Below, in pieces: positions 48,412-54,719 of a stretch of DNA of 64,000 bases. The notes beneath the pieces were generated by a model. That model had not been told where the DNA came from. It saw only the letters and a program-made list of their open reading frames with translations, and ran no database searches. The position numbers were made by a program, and so were the translations under genes. Within the stretch, counting starts at the first letter, position 1. Each line of letters begins with the position of its first letter. The stretch comes from Bacillota bacterium (GTDB lineage Bacteria > Bacillota > UBA4882 > UBA10575). Location: NCBI GenBank assembly GCA_012838955.1, contig DUOH01000027.1:1-64000 (forward strand), read 5' to 3'.

Positions 48412-49710
48412 CTAAGAATGGCCGTCCAGAACCTTCACGGTCGCCCCCAAGGCGGCCAGGTCAGCAAAGAACGTCGGATAAGATTTACTGACATGCTCCG
48501 CTCCGTCAATCTCCAAACCTTCCTGTGTACGCAAGGCTAAAGCGGAAAAGGCCATAATGATCCTGTGGTCATGATGGGCGTCAATGACCACCCCGCCTTT
48601 ATATCCTTTAGGTTCTCCAGTGATCCGTAATTCTTCCGGAAACTCTTCTACTTGTACGCCGACTTTTCTTAATTCCCGGGCAAAATCGCTGATCCGGTCC
48701 GATTCCTTCCAGCGTAAATTGGCGATCTTTCTGAACCTGGAAGTTCCCTCCGCCAACGCGGCTACTACCGCCATGGACAAGACGGCGTCCGTGGCTTGAT
48801 CACCGGGAAAATCCGCGGCCTGTAAGGGCCTCCCGCCTTGAATCCGGATACCTTGGGGATCGGCGGTCAAATCCGCTCCCATCTTTTGTAAGTAGGGAAT
48901 AACCGCCCTTTCACCCTGAACGTCATTGAGGGCAAGGTTGGATAAGACCACCTCCGACGGTAAGAGCACAGCTGCGGAAAGCAGGGCGGAGGCAGCCGGA
49001 TAATCACCGGGCGTCCGGTAGGACCGGGGCTGGTAGCTTCCAGCCGGTACAGTAAAGATTAAGTCTTCCCAGTCTGCTTCTACTTGTACGCCGGCCTCCG
49101 CCATCACCTTGATCGTAGTCGCCAAGGGAGGACGAGAGGCCAGTCCCTCCGTAATCCTTACGGTCAATCCGCCAAGTAGAGGAGCGACAAACAGCAAAGC
49201 CGTGGCAAATTGGGAACTGACCCGGCCGGAAACCATGACTTCCCGTTTGGCAACGGGTTTTTGCCCATAAATGACAATCGGGAGACAGCCGTTCTGATCA
49301 TGAACCTCTGCGCCGAGCTCCCGGAGGGCGGTTAAGAGATCCCCTTGTGGCCTCTTGCCCAAGGACTCGGGGTAGGAGGTTACATACTCAGTCTCCGGCA
49401 ACAGTAAACCGTAGGCCAGGAGCAGACGTAAAATCAAGCCTCCGTTTCCCGGATTCAAAGTAAGCCTTCCCTTCGGTAAGCTTTGAATCCCCCCGATCCG
49501 GAGCAGGCCGTCTGCTTCTGTAATCTTCGCCCCCAACTCCCGGCAACACTCGATGAGCGCCCGGGCGTCATCATTGAGGGCGGGGGAAGCGACAGTCGAT
49601 TCGCCTGGCGTCAAAGCGGAGAGCCAAATATAACGCGAGGTATAATTCTTGGAACCCGGCGCCCGGACCTCACCTTTTAGAGAGTCCGTCGGTCCGACAT
49701 AGATCCTCAC
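48412..49710 (-). CDS. aroA: 3-phosphoshikimate 1-carboxyvinyltransferase (EPSP synthase)
   Basis: The 432-aa protein has GSKNYTSRYIWLSALTPGES and LNPGNGGLILRLLLAYG (the family's GNGGT/SGT loop, in which the common TAxR is altered to LILRL). It also has GDYPAASALLSAA, ATDAVLSMAVVAALAEG and RWKESDRI, HHDHRIIMAFSALAL. It condenses shikimate-3-phosphate with phosphoenolpyruvate. The start is GTG at 49710, overlapping the tyrA stop in an ATGA-like junction. It carries a K in place of the typical R in the opening loop of some classes; the fold call is secure. Confidence 0.93.
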   Translation of the reverse strand: MRIYVGPTDSLKGEVRAPGSKNYTSRYIWLSALTPGESTVASPALNDDARALIECCRELGAKITEADGLLRIGGIQSLPKGRLTLNPGNGGLILRLLLAYGLLLPETEYVTSYPESLGKRPQGDLLTALRELGAEVHDQNGCLPIVIYGQKPVAKREVMVSGRVSSQFATALLFVAPLLGGLTVRITEGLASRPPLATTIKVMAEAGVQVEADWEDLIFTVPAGSYQPRSYRTPGDYPAASALLSAAVLLPSEVVLSNLALNDVQGERAVIPYLQKMGADLTADPQGIRIQGGRPLQAADFPGDQATDAVLSMAVVAALAEGTSRFRKIANLRWKESDRISDFARELRKVGVQVEEFPEELRITGEPKGYKGGVVIDAHHDHRIIMAFSALALRTQEGLEIDGAEHVSKSYPTFFADLAALGATVKVLDGHS

Positions 49711-50819
49711 TGCTGACCATCCTCCCTGGCTTGCACTTGGTAGCCGTGATTTTTTAGCACCGTAACCGCCTGGGCTAAAGCTGAGGCCTGTTCAAAAGCG
49801 ACCCGCAGCGTGCCTGCTTCTCCTTCCCTGATATGCAAGATCTCGAGGTCTTTGATATTTAAACCCTGCTTCGACAGGAGGTTAACCACGCCGGAGATGG
49901 CCCCCGGCCGGTCCTCAATCACCACCACCAGTTCATGCAGGAGGGTTAAGAAGCCCTTGTTCTTTACAGGAAGTTCCGCCCGCACCAGCCTGGCCCGGTT
50001 GAGGCGCTCCTCCAACTCTTCCTTGGCTGAAGCGGCCAGGTCTTGCCGGAACGCGGTCAATTCCGCAATCAACTCATCCACCATCGCCAGCAGGGGTCCT
50101 CGGTTGGAGAAGAGAATCTCCCGCCATAAACCGGGCGCCCCCAGAGCGATTCTGGTGGTATCGCGAAACCCCCCGGCCGCCAGGGATAAAGTCCCGGCCA
50201 GCCGCTTTTCCAGGGAGGCGGCGGTGTTAACCAGGGCCGCGGCAACCACATGCGGTAAGTGGCTGACCGCGGCGACCATCAGGTCATGTTCCTCCGGATC
50301 CAGCAAGTGAGGCAGGCCCCCTACGATCCGAACGAAGCGACAGAGCGTCTCGAGAATCGGTTCGGGGATATTTGCTCCGGGGGTAAGGAGGTAAACAGCG
50401 TTTTCAAAGAGAAAAGGGTCAGCCGCGCTGATTCCGGAGCGTTCAGTCCCGGCCATGGGATGACCGCCCACATAGTAAACGTCCTCCGGTAACAGCGGCG
50501 GGATTCTCCGGTGAAGATCCGCTTTGGTGCTGGCCACATCCGTCAGGATGGTCCCCTTCTTGAGGAAGGGCGCCAGCTCTTTCACGACCGGTACGGTCTG
50601 CTCCACCGGCGTCGCCAGCACCACCAGATCGGCCCAGGCCGCGGCGGATAAACGATCAACCTTCTTATGGGCTGCCGCCCGGGCTACGGCCTCCTCCGCC
50701 ACTCCGGGAGCGAGATCATAGGCGATTACCTCCCCTACAGATTTGGAACGGCAGAGGGCCATGCCCAGTGATCCCCCGATCAAGCCCAGCCCGATAATGC
50801 TTACTTTCCCTAAGCTCAT
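49707..50819 (-). CDS. tyrA: prephenate dehydrogenase with ACT domain
   Basis: A 370-aa enzyme with the NAD motif IIGLGLIGGSLGMALCRS at residues 8-25, then GGHPMAGTERSGI, VAAVSHLPHVVAAALV and GGFRDTTRIALG. A C-terminal ACT domain (about 290-365, ELVVVIEDRPGAISGVVNLLSKQG) probably senses tyrosine. It makes 4-hydroxyphenylpyruvate for tyrosine. The ATG overlaps the stop of the DAHP synthase gene (ATGA) and its own stop overlaps aroA. Confidence 0.95.
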   Translation of the reverse strand: MSLGKVSIIGLGLIGGSLGMALCRSKSVGEVIAYDLAPGVAEEAVARAAAHKKVDRLSAAAWADLVVLATPVEQTVPVVKELAPFLKKGTILTDVASTKADLHRRIPPLLPEDVYYVGGHPMAGTERSGISAADPFLFENAVYLLTPGANIPEPILETLCRFVRIVGGLPHLLDPEEHDLMVAAVSHLPHVVAAALVNTAASLEKRLAGTLSLAAGGFRDTTRIALGAPGLWREILFSNRGPLLAMVDELIAELTAFRQDLAASAKEELEERLNRARLVRAELPVKNKGFLTLLHELVVVIEDRPGAISGVVNLLSKQGLNIKDLEILHIREGEAGTLRVAFEQASALAQAVTVLKNHGYQVQAREDGQQ

Positions 50820-51826
50820 ACCTTTCTCCCCATTACCTTGATTAACGGCTGAACTCCGTCGAGCAGGGCGCCAAACTCATTAAGGTTCAAGGATTGCGGC
50901 CCATCGGAAAGCGCCTGCTCCGGCCGGGGATGAACCTCGACCATCAAACCGTCGGCTCCGGCGGCCACCGCCGCTTTGGACATGGGCAGGATCAGGCTTT
51001 TGCGACCAGTAGCGTGACTGGGATCGGCGATCACCGGAAGGTGACTCAATTCCTTGATCAGAGGAATAGCGCTTAGATCCATGGTATTCCTGGTTGCCGT
51101 CTCAAAGGTGCGGATGCCCCGCTCACAGAGGACCACTTGGTAATTGCCTTCTTTCATAATATATTCCGCAGCCATCAGCCATTCCTCAACAGTAGCCGCC
51201 AATCCCCGTTTCAAAATGACCGGCTTCTTGCTCTGCCCCACCTCCCGTAGGAGAGTGAAGTTCTGCATATTCCTGGCTCCGATTTGAAACATATCCGCGT
51301 ACTTGGCCACCAATTCCACATCTTTGGGGTTGACTACTTCGGTTACTACCGGTAGCCCGGTCTCCGCGCCCGCGGCTTGTAAAAGCTTCAGCCCTTCTTC
51401 CTCCAGCCCCTGAAAAGAATATGGTGAAGTTCTCGGTTTATAGGCGCCGCCCCGTAAGATCTGCGCGCCCGCTTCCTTGATCCGCCGGGCGGTGGTGAGT
51501 AACTGTTCTTCATCTTCCACCGCGCAAGGACCGGCCACCACCACAATCTGCTCCCCGCCGAAAGTGACATGGCCCACTTTCACCTCGGTGTGGGCGCTAA
51601 ATTCTTTGCTCGCCAGTTTGAAGGGTTTTAAGATCGGCACCACCTTTTCCACTCCGGCCAGCGCTTCGATGGCGTGGATCAGTTCCGGAGTCTTCTCCCC
51701 AATGGCGCCGATGATTGTCCGTTCTACTCCTTTCGAGACATGTAGCCCGAAGCCCAGCTCCTGCAGTCTCTCTTGCACCTGCCCCAATTCGACCGGGCCG
51801 GCCTGTGGCGACATAACAATAACCAT
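50816..51826 (-). CDS. aroF: DAHP synthase with N-terminal ferredoxin-like domain
   Basis: The 336-aa enzyme is a type I-beta DAHP synthase. Residues 1 to about 70 form the ferredoxin-like regulatory domain (MVIVMSPQAGPVELGQVQERLQ-type start, read to residue 20). The catalytic barrel starts VVVAGPCAVEDEEQ and has [18 protein letters not shown] and ILKRGLAATVEEW. It condenses phosphoenolpyruvate with erythrose 4-phosphate, the first step of the shikimate route. The domain is usually the phenylalanine/tyrosine allosteric site. It is the fifth gene of the hutP-led operon. The other DAHP synthase (39406) has a chorismate mutase instead. Confidence 0.95.
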   Translation of the reverse strand: MVIVMSPQAGPVELGQVQERLQELGFGLHVSKGVERTIIGAIGEKTPELIHAIEALAGVEKVVPILKPFKLASKEFSAHTEVKVGHVTFGGEQIVVVAGPCAVEDEEQLLTTARRIKEAGAQILRGGAYKPRTSPYSFQGLEEEGLKLLQAAGAETGLPVVTEVVNPKDVELVAKYADMFQIGARNMQNFTLLREVGQSKKPVILKRGLAATVEEWLMAAEYIMKEGNYQVVLCERGIRTFETATRNTMDLSAIPLIKELSHLPVIADPSHATGRKSLILPMSKAAVAAGADGLMVEVHPRPEQALSDGPQSLNLNEFGALLDGVQPLIKVMGRKV

Positions 51827-51888
51827 CCTTCAAATCATCCTTTCTACCATCCTACTTTTGCGTCACCCTTACGCAAACTTGACCAAGG

Positions 51889-53028
51889 TTACTTTCCCAA
51901 TTCGCTCAGAACTTCCTTTAGAGCCTTGAGGAACCTTTCATTCTGTTCCTCAGTACCGACGGTTACTCTTATATATTTAGGCAAACCGAAGATATCTCCG
52001 GTACGCACAATCACCCCTTTCTCCAACATGCGCTGGAAGACGTCCTTGGAATGATATGGAGTGGCAAAGAGAATAAAATTGGCCTGTGTCGGCACATAGT
52101 CCAAGCCCAGTTCAGTAAAGCCCGCGGTCAGGAAGGCGATTCCGTCCTGGTTGAGTTTTTTACTTTTCGCCAAAAACTCCGTATCCTCCAGGGCCGCTCT
52201 GGCGGCGGCTTGCGCCGGAATGTTCACGTTGAATGGTTCTTTGACCCTATTGAGGTAAGAAATCAACCCGGCGGCGCCAATCCCATAGCCCACACGGAGC
52301 CCGGCCAGCCCGTAAATCTTGGAAAAAGTCCGCAGTACCAGTACGCGTCCGTCTCCAATATAGTCTATACCGTCCGGATAAGCCGGATCCTCCACATACT
52401 CAAAGTATGCCTGGTCCAGCACGATCAGCACTTGCGACGGAACGGAGGAGATAAACTTCTCCAGTTCATCCTTGGTAATCATCGTGCCGGTAGGATTATT
52501 GGGGTTGCAGATAAAAACAGCTTTGGTCCGCTCAGTGACGGCAGCCGCCATCTGTTCCAGGTCGTGTCCGAAGTCTTGTCCAGCCGGTGCCCGGCGTATC
52601 TTGGCTCCCATCAGGTGTGCGGCATAGGCATACTCCCCGAAGGTATGCTCGGAGATGACCACCTCATCACCAGGGCGGAAAAAGGCCTCCGCCAACAACT
52701 TGATGATCTCATCTGAACCATTGCCGATGATCAGTTCTTCTACTTTCACCCCGAGTTTCGCCGCTAACGCCTGTTTTAAGTAAAAGCTGTTGCCATCCGG
52801 ATAAATGTGCAACTCCGACAAGACTTCACTCACAGCGGTCCGGCCCTTGGGGGAGGGCCCTAAGGGGTTCTCGTTGGAAGCCAGTTTAATCACGTCCGTA
52901 ATCCCCAGTTCCCGTCGGACCTCATCCACTGGTTTTCCCGGTACGTAGGGACTGATCTCCAAAATTTCTCTGCGGATTAACGAATCATACTCCCACGCCC
53001 GGTTGTTCTTAAGTATTTTCTCTTCCAT
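51889..53028 (-). CDS. hisC: histidinol-phosphate/aromatic aminotransferase
   Basis: This 379-aa PLP aminotransferase has IKLASNENPLGPSPKG, ICNPNNPTGTMI, LVLDQAYFEYV, RTFSKIYGLAGLRVGYGI and an RTGDIFGLP ending. It is HisC-type. In Firmicute aromatic operons HisC also transaminates 4-hydroxyphenylpyruvate and phenylpyruvate (known in B. subtilis), which fits the position between aroH and aroF. No other his gene is in the window. The ATG at 53028 follows AGGTGGTG; the 12-bp longer frame from GTG is not needed. Confidence 0.92.
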   Translation of the reverse strand: MEEKILKNNRAWEYDSLIRREILEISPYVPGKPVDEVRRELGITDVIKLASNENPLGPSPKGRTAVSEVLSELHIYPDGNSFYLKQALAAKLGVKVEELIIGNGSDEIIKLLAEAFFRPGDEVVISEHTFGEYAYAAHLMGAKIRRAPAGQDFGHDLEQMAAAVTERTKAVFICNPNNPTGTMITKDELEKFISSVPSQVLIVLDQAYFEYVEDPAYPDGIDYIGDGRVLVLRTFSKIYGLAGLRVGYGIGAAGLISYLNRVKEPFNVNIPAQAAARAALEDTEFLAKSKKLNQDGIAFLTAGFTELGLDYVPTQANFILFATPYHSKDVFQRMLEKGVIVRTGDIFGLPKYIRVTVGTEEQNERFLKALKEVLSELGK

Positions 53029-53054
53029 TAAACGCACCACCTATCAAATTAATG

Positions 53055-53090: not shown

Positions 53091-53642
53091 TTAATTAAAT
53101 CGCCAGTTCCCATCGGCAAATACCACTTCTACCGTTTCCGCGTTGGCCACAGTCCTCTCCTCGGTCTGCAGAGACTGGGCAAAAAACGCTTTGAGCAATC
53201 CGCCGTGTGTCACCACGATCATCCGCCGTCCTTCAAAGATCCGGGCTAAAAAGGAGAAGGCCTGCTCCGCCCGGCTCCTTAGCTCCGCTTTACTTTCCAA
53301 ACCCGGTAGCTCTCTCTCCGGACGCGACCCCGGATAGGCTACTTCCACTTGCGCTTGGTTCATACCCTCCAAGGGGCCGAAAGATCTCTCCCGTAATTTC
53401 GGAAAGAACAAAACCTCCAACCCAAGCTCGTGCCCGATAATCTCCGCAGTCTCCCTGGCCCGTTTCAAGTCACTGGCGACAATCCCTTCCCATCCCCGCC
53501 CCTGTAGTCTTCTGGCGGCCTCTTCCACCTCTCTCCTACCATCTGCGTTCAGTCTGGTGTCTGTCCACCCCTGGATCCTGCCTTCGACATTCCAATCGGT
53601 TGATCCGTGTCGTACTAAACAGAATACCGTCTGCTGGGGCAA
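53091..53642 (-). CDS. histidine phosphatase family protein
   Basis: This protein has the phosphoglycerate-mutase/acid-phosphatase motif CLVRHGSTDWN (near residues 10-20) and the second histidine in VVTHGGLL, RERSFGPLEG between. It is about 183 aa and probably a small-molecule phosphatase. Family members act on phosphoserine, cobalamin intermediates or sugar phosphates; the substrate here is open. TTG at 53642 lies four bases after the aroH stop and is my choice, since a longer frame to 53696 runs into aroH. Its place in an aromatic operon is unusual. Confidence 0.85.
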   Translation of the reverse strand: MPQQTVFCLVRHGSTDWNVEGRIQGWTDTRLNADGRREVEEAARRLQGRGWEGIVASDLKRARETAEIIGHELGLEVLFFPKLRERSFGPLEGMNQAQVEVAYPGSRPERELPGLESKAELRSRAEQAFSFLARIFEGRRMIVVTHGGLLKAFFAQSLQTEERTVANAETVEVVFADGNWRFN

Positions 53643-53646
53643 GGTG

Positions 53647-54012
53647 TTACTTCGCCCAGTCCGGCCGGAGTTTTTTTGCTTCGTGCAGATAAACATGGTG
53701 AATCTCCTCCAAGCTTGACTTCGTATAGTAATGGATCAGTACGCGGATGCACTTAGGCAAAGCCCCGGGCGCCTGCATCTCCATGGTGTCCAGTAACGGA
53801 AGCTTCGTATAACCCAAGAGACGAACGGCTTCCGCTGGAAAAGCCGCGGTCAAGTCCGGTGTGACTGTAAAGATGGCGCTGACTAAATCATCCGGCTTGA
53901 TCCTGTTTTCCTCGATAATCTTTGAAAACATTTCCTTCGTCGCCAAGAGGATCTCTTGGCGTTCATCCTTTTGTACGGTGGTTGCTCCTCTCACCGCTCT
54001 GACTCTTTTCAT
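53647..54012 (-). CDS. aroH: chorismate mutase, AroH type
   Basis: The 121-aa protein is a monofunctional AroH chorismate mutase: VRAVRGATTVQKDERQEIL, SAIFTVTPDLTAAFPAEAVR, LPLLDTMEMQ and PKCIRVLIHYY with catalytic Arg, Glu and Cys positions. It converts chorismate to prephenate. The ATG at 54012 follows GGAGGAACA; a longer frame adds nine unconserved residues. It is the second gene of the operon, after hutP. Confidence 0.95.
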   Translation of the reverse strand: MKRVRAVRGATTVQKDERQEILLATKEMFSKIIEENRIKPDDLVSAIFTVTPDLTAAFPAEAVRLLGYTKLPLLDTMEMQAPGALPKCIRVLIHYYTKSSLEEIHHVYLHEAKKLRPDWAK

Positions 54013-54050: not shown

Positions 54051-54461
54051 TCAAATCGCCCTATGTCCGAGCCCAACCGCTACTTCATCTAGGTGCAACA
54101 TGCCAATGGCGCAAAAAACCGCCACACTGACGTGGTCTCCATGGCGGGCTAAGCCGATCTTTCCGCCGATACTCAAACCCAAAGCCTTTGGCAAGACTTG
54201 GAGCAGCGCTTCATGAGTGGCGCCCGCCACCGCCCCCTCCTCGGCATGCACGTCTCTAATCAGAAACTCCCTCTTTCCGGCCACGACCGCCCGTTCGATG
54301 ATGGTCTTCACGGATTGGGTAGAATCTCCGCCGAAATCCACAGCCGCCCCTCTAATCTCCTGATTACGCAGTTCTTCCTTGAGTTTCTTCTCTTCTTCCC
54401 GGGAAGCTGTCATCGCCATCGCCAAAGCGGCTCTGGCCACTTGCTTACTACCCCTCTCCAT
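54051..54461 (-). CDS. hutP: HutP-family RNA-binding antiterminator
   Basis: The 136-aa protein matches HutP over its length: EEKKLKEELRNQEIRGAAVDFGGDS, then GKREFLIRDVHAEEGAVAGATHEAL and the signature GKIGLARHGDHVSVAVFCAIGM. HutP hexamers in Bacillus bind L-histidine and Mg2+ and then bind UAG-rich RNA to prevent termination in the histidine-use operon. Here it leads an aromatic synthesis operon including hisC and no hut catabolic gene. The start ATG at 54461 follows GGAGGTGAGC. It may bind its own leader (inference). Confidence 0.9.
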   Translation of the reverse strand: MERGSKQVARAALAMAMTASREEEKKLKEELRNQEIRGAAVDFGGDSTQSVKTIIERAVVAGKREFLIRDVHAEEGAVAGATHEALLQVLPKALGLSIGGKIGLARHGDHVSVAVFCAIGMLHLDEVAVGLGHRAI

Positions 54462-54690
54462 GCTGCGCTCACCTCCATAATTAAAAAACACTCCAGGAGA
54501 CGTCATGACCTTGCGGTCATTTTAAGATCCGATTGCCCGGATCATTGGTAAAAAACCTCCAACCCGTTAAAGCCTTACGCATCCCGAAAAGGGCTAAACG
54601 TACGGCGCGGTCTGGAGGCGCTCTCACGGAGTGCCTGACTGTTATGGGATTTTTGCACTACCGTCCTACCGCAAAACCGATCTTTATATC
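54462..54690 (-). promoter_or_regulatory. structured leader of the hutP-aro operon
   Basis: This is the transcribed leader upstream of hutP. On the minus strand CCTCCA-G-ACC (54609-54618) can pair with GGT-TGGAGG (54556-54564), and a T run follows at 54550-54555; the loop contains an inner hairpin AGCCC...GGCT. Nearer the gene, ATGACC, loop, GGTCAT (54506-54521) has a GCAA tetraloop. Two TAG triplets (54666-54668 and 54658-54660) lie 5 nt apart upstream. The layout fits a regulated terminator, and a HutP target is possible but not shown. I see no T-box motif. Confidence 0.5.
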
Positions 54691-54719
54691 AATCTAGCAT
54701 AGAATGGCTGATTTGGCAA
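54691..54719 (-). promoter_or_regulatory. promoter of the hutP-aro operon
   Basis: On the minus strand TTGCCA (54714-54719), a 17-bp spacer and TAGATT (54691-54696) form a reasonable sigma-A promoter. It lies about 230 bp before the hutP start. Confidence 0.6.

Follow-up and report, generated by a model that had tools for sequence, protein, structure and literature searches.

What does a gene of the HutP family do at the head of an operon for aromatic amino acid synthesis? HutP is known generally as the regulator of one Bacillus histidine-degradation operon. The window (the whole 64,000-nucleotide stretch analysed, from contig DUOH01000027.1 of a Bacillota bacterium) carries a relative of it as the first gene of a minus-strand operon, in the order hutP–aroH–phosphatase–hisC–aroF–tyrA–aroA, behind a leader of about 220 nt.

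The HutP-like protein and its operon

The promoter, ribosome-binding site and genes are as follows:

54691–54719, minus strand: sigma-A type promoter (−35 TTGCCA 54719–54714, 17-bp spacer, −10 TAGATT 54696–54691)
54468–54477, minus strand: hutP ribosome-binding site TGGAGGTGAG, from the sequence
54051–54461, minus strand: gene for a HutP-like protein of 136 aa (PF09021), a putative NAG-repeat RNA-binding regulator
53647–54012, minus strand: aroH, chorismate mutase type I (PF07736)
53091–53696, minus strand: histidine phosphatase superfamily gene (His_Phos_1, PF00300), between aroH and hisC
51889–53040, minus strand: hisC-type aminotransferase (PF00155)
50816–51826, minus strand: aroF, DAHP synthase (PF00793 and NF006421)
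49707–50819, minus strand: tyrA, prephenate dehydrogenase (PF02153, PF20463)
48412–49710, minus strand: aroA, EPSP synthase (PF00275)

A preliminary description had placed hutP ahead of aroH, hisC, aroF, tyrA and aroA behind this promoter; the promoter is indeed present with both hexamers, and family profiles confirm the genes and add the His_Phos_1 gene, which had been missed. The promoter sequence (TTGC..N..TAGATTG) also lies 5′ of hutP in relatives, as judged from upstream regions of 17 genomes of the order. The window protein matches PF09021 with 153 bits against a cut-off of 25 (B. subtilis HutP scores 112 bits), and its gene is single copy; the order has it in 17/17 genomes, the class as a whole in 26/29. 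A link to aromatic synthesis is supported because aroH lies immediately 3′ of hutP in 72 of the 78 assessable loci, and a tie to histidine use is contradicted by the absence of hutH from all 17 genomes of the order.

The AlphaFold model of the window protein has a pLDDT of 90.7, and when it was searched with Foldseek the top 11 PDB matches were all HutP (TM 0.80). Searches of PDB sequences with the clade (phmmer/hmmsearch) gave no match, the clade being too far from the solved HutP, so that the link to the HutP structures comes from fold comparison and not from sequence search. We take H73, H77 and H138 to be the Mg2+/L-His ligands of B. subtilis HutP. In an alignment of 48 sequences, which is moderately certain as the sequences are distant, H73 and H77 align with invariant Gly76 and Gly80, while the placement of the H138 equivalent is uncertain. 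Histidine is therefore unlikely to be bound in the same way as in B. subtilis HutP, and the alignment supports a ligand site that appears changed, in keeping with the earlier suggestion of a different ligand.

Conserved and private parts of the hutP leader

Sites were scored with R1, a sequence-only model of three units that was run on 29 genomes of the class and 15 named genomes. The leader contains:

54655–54670, minus strand: NAG-repeat site GGTAGGACGGTAGTGC, two UAG with an 8-nt period (R1 E=0.30 in the window)
54626–54635, minus strand: terminator 5′ arm and loop GGCACTCCGT, conserved, able to pair with 54664–54655 (antiterminator) or 54494–54489 (terminator)
54550–54619, minus strand: terminator-like stem-loop T1, −30.3 kcal/mol, nested in the conserved terminator, not conserved
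54526–54543, minus strand: hairpin GATCCGGGCAATCGGATC, not conserved
54505–54520, minus strand: GCAA-tetraloop hairpin ATGACCGCAAGGTCAT, not conserved
54483–54494, minus strand: terminator 3′ arm and T-run GGAGTGTTTTTT, the arm itself being 54494–54489

As a whole the leader folds with −82.2 kcal/mol, a lower energy than any of 200 dinucleotide shuffles reached (z −3.8). Everything that had been named in it is present, that is, two TAG triplets 5 nt apart (54668–54666 and 54660–54658), a long-range stem (GCCTCCA 54619–54613 with TGGAGGT 54561–54555) whose T-run ends at 54550, and the GCAA hairpin. What had been overlooked is a second end that resembles a terminator, GGAGTGTTTTTT. These parts differ in conservation. 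The motif kept among hutP leaders consists of NAG triplets each 8 nt, (GGNAGNAY)2–3, plus a terminator: in the upstream regions of the 17 genomes the promoter is common, most have an GACGGTAGTG-centred NAG repeat of 8-nt period, and a terminator stands before hutP (for example GCACTCC/GGGGTGC-TTTTT). The 5′ arm kept in relatives is GGCACTCC (54635–54628); the two arms are adjacent in relatives and about 130 nt apart in the window, where an insertion splits them. Stem T1 and the GCAA hairpin were considered as a conserved switch and rejected, being absent in relatives, private to the window's genome and inside this insertion. Relatives thus keep the UAG/NAG motif of the first description and a terminator that it had missed, and they lack both its GCAA hairpin and its stem ending at 54550.

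Folding of successive transcripts predicts an exchange of partners. With the transcript ended at the first T-run, ACGG-U-AGUGC (54664–54655), which lies in the NAG site and can pair with the terminator 5′ arm, forms an antiterminator with GCACUCCGU (54634–54626), and when the transcript is extended to the second T-run the 5′ arm shifts into the terminator. Two NAG triplets at an 8-nt period are not rare by chance in 300 nt and the hutP site on its own is not significant genome-wide (E=0.30); it gains significance by being conserved and by recurring at aroF and transporters as well as in other genomes. R1 matches the hutP leader in 15/17 genomes of the order (E≤1), the NAG sites being weak or missing in the hutP leaders of G012, G013 and two members of family f5, and no such leader was seen at many clostridial hutP genes. 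Several leaders have two clusters of up to three NAGs. Neither the window leader nor the period-8 leaders tested gave an Rfam match at gathering score.

Recurrence of the repeat at aroF and other genes

The window holds another copy of the repeat, also missing from the preliminary description:

51835–51855, minus strand: second NAG-repeat site, over the aroF ribosome-binding region, AGTAGGATGGTAGAAAGGATG (R1 E=0.045)

All 17 genomes of the order have a NAG repeat over the aroF Shine–Dalgarno region (for example GGTAGAACGGTAGAAAGGTAGAAAGGAAGATGATC). In the aroF −60 regions a TAG–TAG spacing of 8 was observed 23 times against 0.4 expected, with 0–1 at other spacings, although the rows of this test are related sequences and its p-values are overstated. 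In the class, 39 of the 40 R1 matches with E≤0.07 lie at aroF, at hutP, in leaders of TrpX-like or DctP transporters or at a Beta_elim_lyase gene, the lone exception being at the start of a phenylacetate-CoA-ligase-like gene (L190, G017:C469:846) in a genome with no HutP gene found. The repeat also occurs in aroF leaders of other Firmicutes: in 11/11 genomes whose aroF site had no part in the training, the best genome-wide match was upstream of aroF (Heliorestis, Moorella, three Desulfofundulus, Desulforadius, S. wolfei, Thermincola, G014, G020 and G021), and in most untrained clostridial genomes a terminator follows the aroF site. Weaker matches fall in a shikimate kinase leader and at sodium:solute symporters; one symporter match (G000:C14:26409, E=0.96) is in the genome that holds the window. 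These targets were identified from their place relative to known genes, from reading of translations and, in representative cases, with family models, so that HMM annotation covers part of the matches. Four HutP-bearing genomes gave no R1 match (G019, G022, G024 and G028). A site at pheA, present in only 1 of 17 genomes, was taken as chance, and the other matches to a loose pattern, GGNAGNAYGGNAG, that were inspected in the window's genome were coding or unrelated sequence. Control appears to reach beyond the HutP gene's own leader to aroF, transporters and a catabolic gene. The earlier proposal that HutP controls aromatic synthesis by binding its own leader is well supported by the aroH linkage and the conserved motif and terminator, and falls short in confining control to that leader.

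The catabolic gene is tryptophanase/tyrosine phenol-lyase-like; its top equivalog model is tyrosine phenol-lyase (452 bits, but below cut-off); the broader tryptophanase subfamily model scores 608 bits. In its leaders (L238, L239, L247, L248 and L250) the NAGs lie in the loop of a hairpin, TGCAGGA..TCCTGCA, which excludes a Shine–Dalgarno-sequestering helix of similar energy and whose 3′ strand can pair with the Shine–Dalgarno sequence GCAGGAGG; speculatively, this looks like a two-state translational switch that could permit activation.

Two further observations were made at these loci. T-box leaders (RF00230; L139 408–648 and L140 1768–2007, plus strand) lie on the strand opposite TrpX-like transporter leaders, and in L215 a period-8 NAG leader with its terminator is followed directly by short tandem repeats (AGGGGAACTYAATTC-like), downstream of G037:C1:3078928.

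Mode of control and comparison with known systems

In many leaders the site and the terminator arm are complementary: opposite GGUAGGA sites stand UCCUACC loops, both in the TrpX and DctP leaders and in one hutP leader of another lineage, and CUCCGU stands opposite ACGGUAG in the hutP leaders of the window's order. When site–terminator arm pairs were swapped between leaders, the leaders' own pairs did better (summed −498 against −416 ± 12, p 5e-5, a value overstated by the relatedness of the sequences). This test used hand-corrected terminators and replaced a mononucleotide-shuffled duplex test; when sites were shuffled, the antiterminator pairing of single leaders was often not significant, some terminators being misassigned there. 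The complementarity suggests TRAP-like attenuation. We infer that the HutP-like protein binds the NAG sites and propose that, with ligand plentiful, its hexamer would bind clusters of two or three NAG triplets at 8-nt spacing. In the hutP and transporter leaders, where the NAG site overlaps the partner strand of the terminator 5′ arm, binding would block the antiterminator, so freeing the 5′ arm and stopping transcription; at aroF in the window's order, with the site covering the Shine–Dalgarno region, it would block translation. The ligand is probably an aromatic amino acid or a precursor, and Tyr and Phe are the favoured candidates, since the trp branch appears to be served by TRAP and tyrosine phenol-lyase is the best equivalog model of the lyase target. 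Overall we consider it likely that this is a diverged, probably hexameric, RNA-binding regulator of the HutP family that acts on aromatic amino acid metabolism through NAG clusters, by attenuation or by blocking the Shine–Dalgarno sequence.

The same protein and sites could instead work with the sign of HutP, the ligand-bound protein opening the terminator and the ligand signalling a need for aromatic synthesis. B. subtilis HutP does bind NAG clusters and so prevents terminator formation (PMC7430163), and terminator 3′ arms such as GGAGUG hold a GAG triplet, but the NAG sites precede the terminator and are able to pair with its 5′ arm, and those at aroF extend over the Shine–Dalgarno sequence, where binding would repress. 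We regard this as unlikely; control probably works by termination or by repression of translation and not by HutP-style antitermination. Improbable, in our judgement, is that TRAP (MtrB) reads the period-8 repeats and that the operon carries the HutP-like gene as a bystander. A canonical TRAP gene is present in all 32 genomes tested (17/17 of the order and 15/15 named genomes; G000:C31:45878–46075 in the window's genome), so co-occurrence alone cannot separate TRAP from the HutP-like protein, and TRAP is itself a regulator of aromatic genes that recognises (G/U)AG triplets (PMC4027176). However, TRAP binds stably to seven or more triplets (PMC4027176), whereas the period-8 sites have two or three per cluster and about six at most, and TRAP has its own sites of 8–12 KAG with a 5–6-nt period before trpE in some of the same loci. 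Such runs of 8–12 triplets occur in L055, L076, L077, L078 and L086, and L092 and L093 have runs of 6–7; where checked, the runs lie some hundreds to about 900 nt beyond hutP. In hutP–aroH–trp loci of other Firmicutes TRAP-type sites lie between aroH and trpE-type genes (L077 5909, L086 6322, L092 5939, L055 5900, L076 5905), the next gene being trpE in L077 (confirmed) and, judged from its translation, trpE-like in L086 and L092. No run of at least seven KAG at this period was found in the window or at the hutP and aroF sites scanned. The period-8 site, moreover, sits in the HutP gene's own leader, and in G018, a single genome, where TRAP is present and HutP absent, aroF lacks the site.

GGNAGGA resembles a Shine–Dalgarno sequence and DNA operators can be direct repeats, so the repeats might also be purine-rich sequences of either kind with no relation to HutP. 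We give this very little credence, as the TAG spacing shows an 8-nt period and no other, the sites in terminator leaders are far upstream of any start codon and those at aroF lie inside operons, and HutP-family proteins bind single-stranded NAG RNA.

The preferred reading, a HutP-family regulator acting on NAG clusters, points to a second, undescribed RNA-binding switch beside the tryptophan regulator TRAP, its repeat standing before aromatic-pathway genes in many anaerobic bacteria. More tentatively, at somewhat short of even chances, this second NAG-reading protein may share aromatic control with TRAP across several Firmicutes classes, sensing Tyr/Phe and not Trp and using one site grammar for three actions, as leader attenuator, as blocker of the aroF Shine–Dalgarno sequence and, probably, as positive switch at the lyase-like gene. 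If the preferred reading holds, the HutP family more broadly regulates the synthesis of aromatic amino acids beside TRAP, its ligand and spacing rule being different and its sign opposite. Two unrelated proteins would then read NAG triplets by separate grammars within a single pathway and at times within a single operon, with hutP–aroH under one and trpE under the other. A literature search, with most subscription journals outside it, found no report that connects HutP with chorismate mutase or, in this sense, with control of aromatic genes.

T-box and PCE/ARO-box systems control aromatic genes in bacteria; the present leaders differ in having no Rfam match, and the T-box matches of L139 and L140 are on the other strand. 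The published aroF leader motif uORFC-13-1 (Acholeplasma) is different. With B. subtilis HutP the system shares the Pfam family, the fold (TM 0.80), a leader with an intrinsic terminator and NAG clusters of up to three, often two clusters. It differs in its lack of hut genes, the invariant Gly at H73 and H77, its many targets, a triplet period of 8 where that of B. subtilis HutP is 7, and a predicted sign of termination or repression. The proposed action is like that of TRAP on the trp operon, with ligand-activated binding to repeated NAG in RNA that blocks an antiterminator or the Shine–Dalgarno sequence of aromatic genes, but the proteins are unrelated, TRAP uses about 9–11 KAG with a 5–6-nt period, and in these genomes TRAP-type sites precede trpE and not hutP or aroF.
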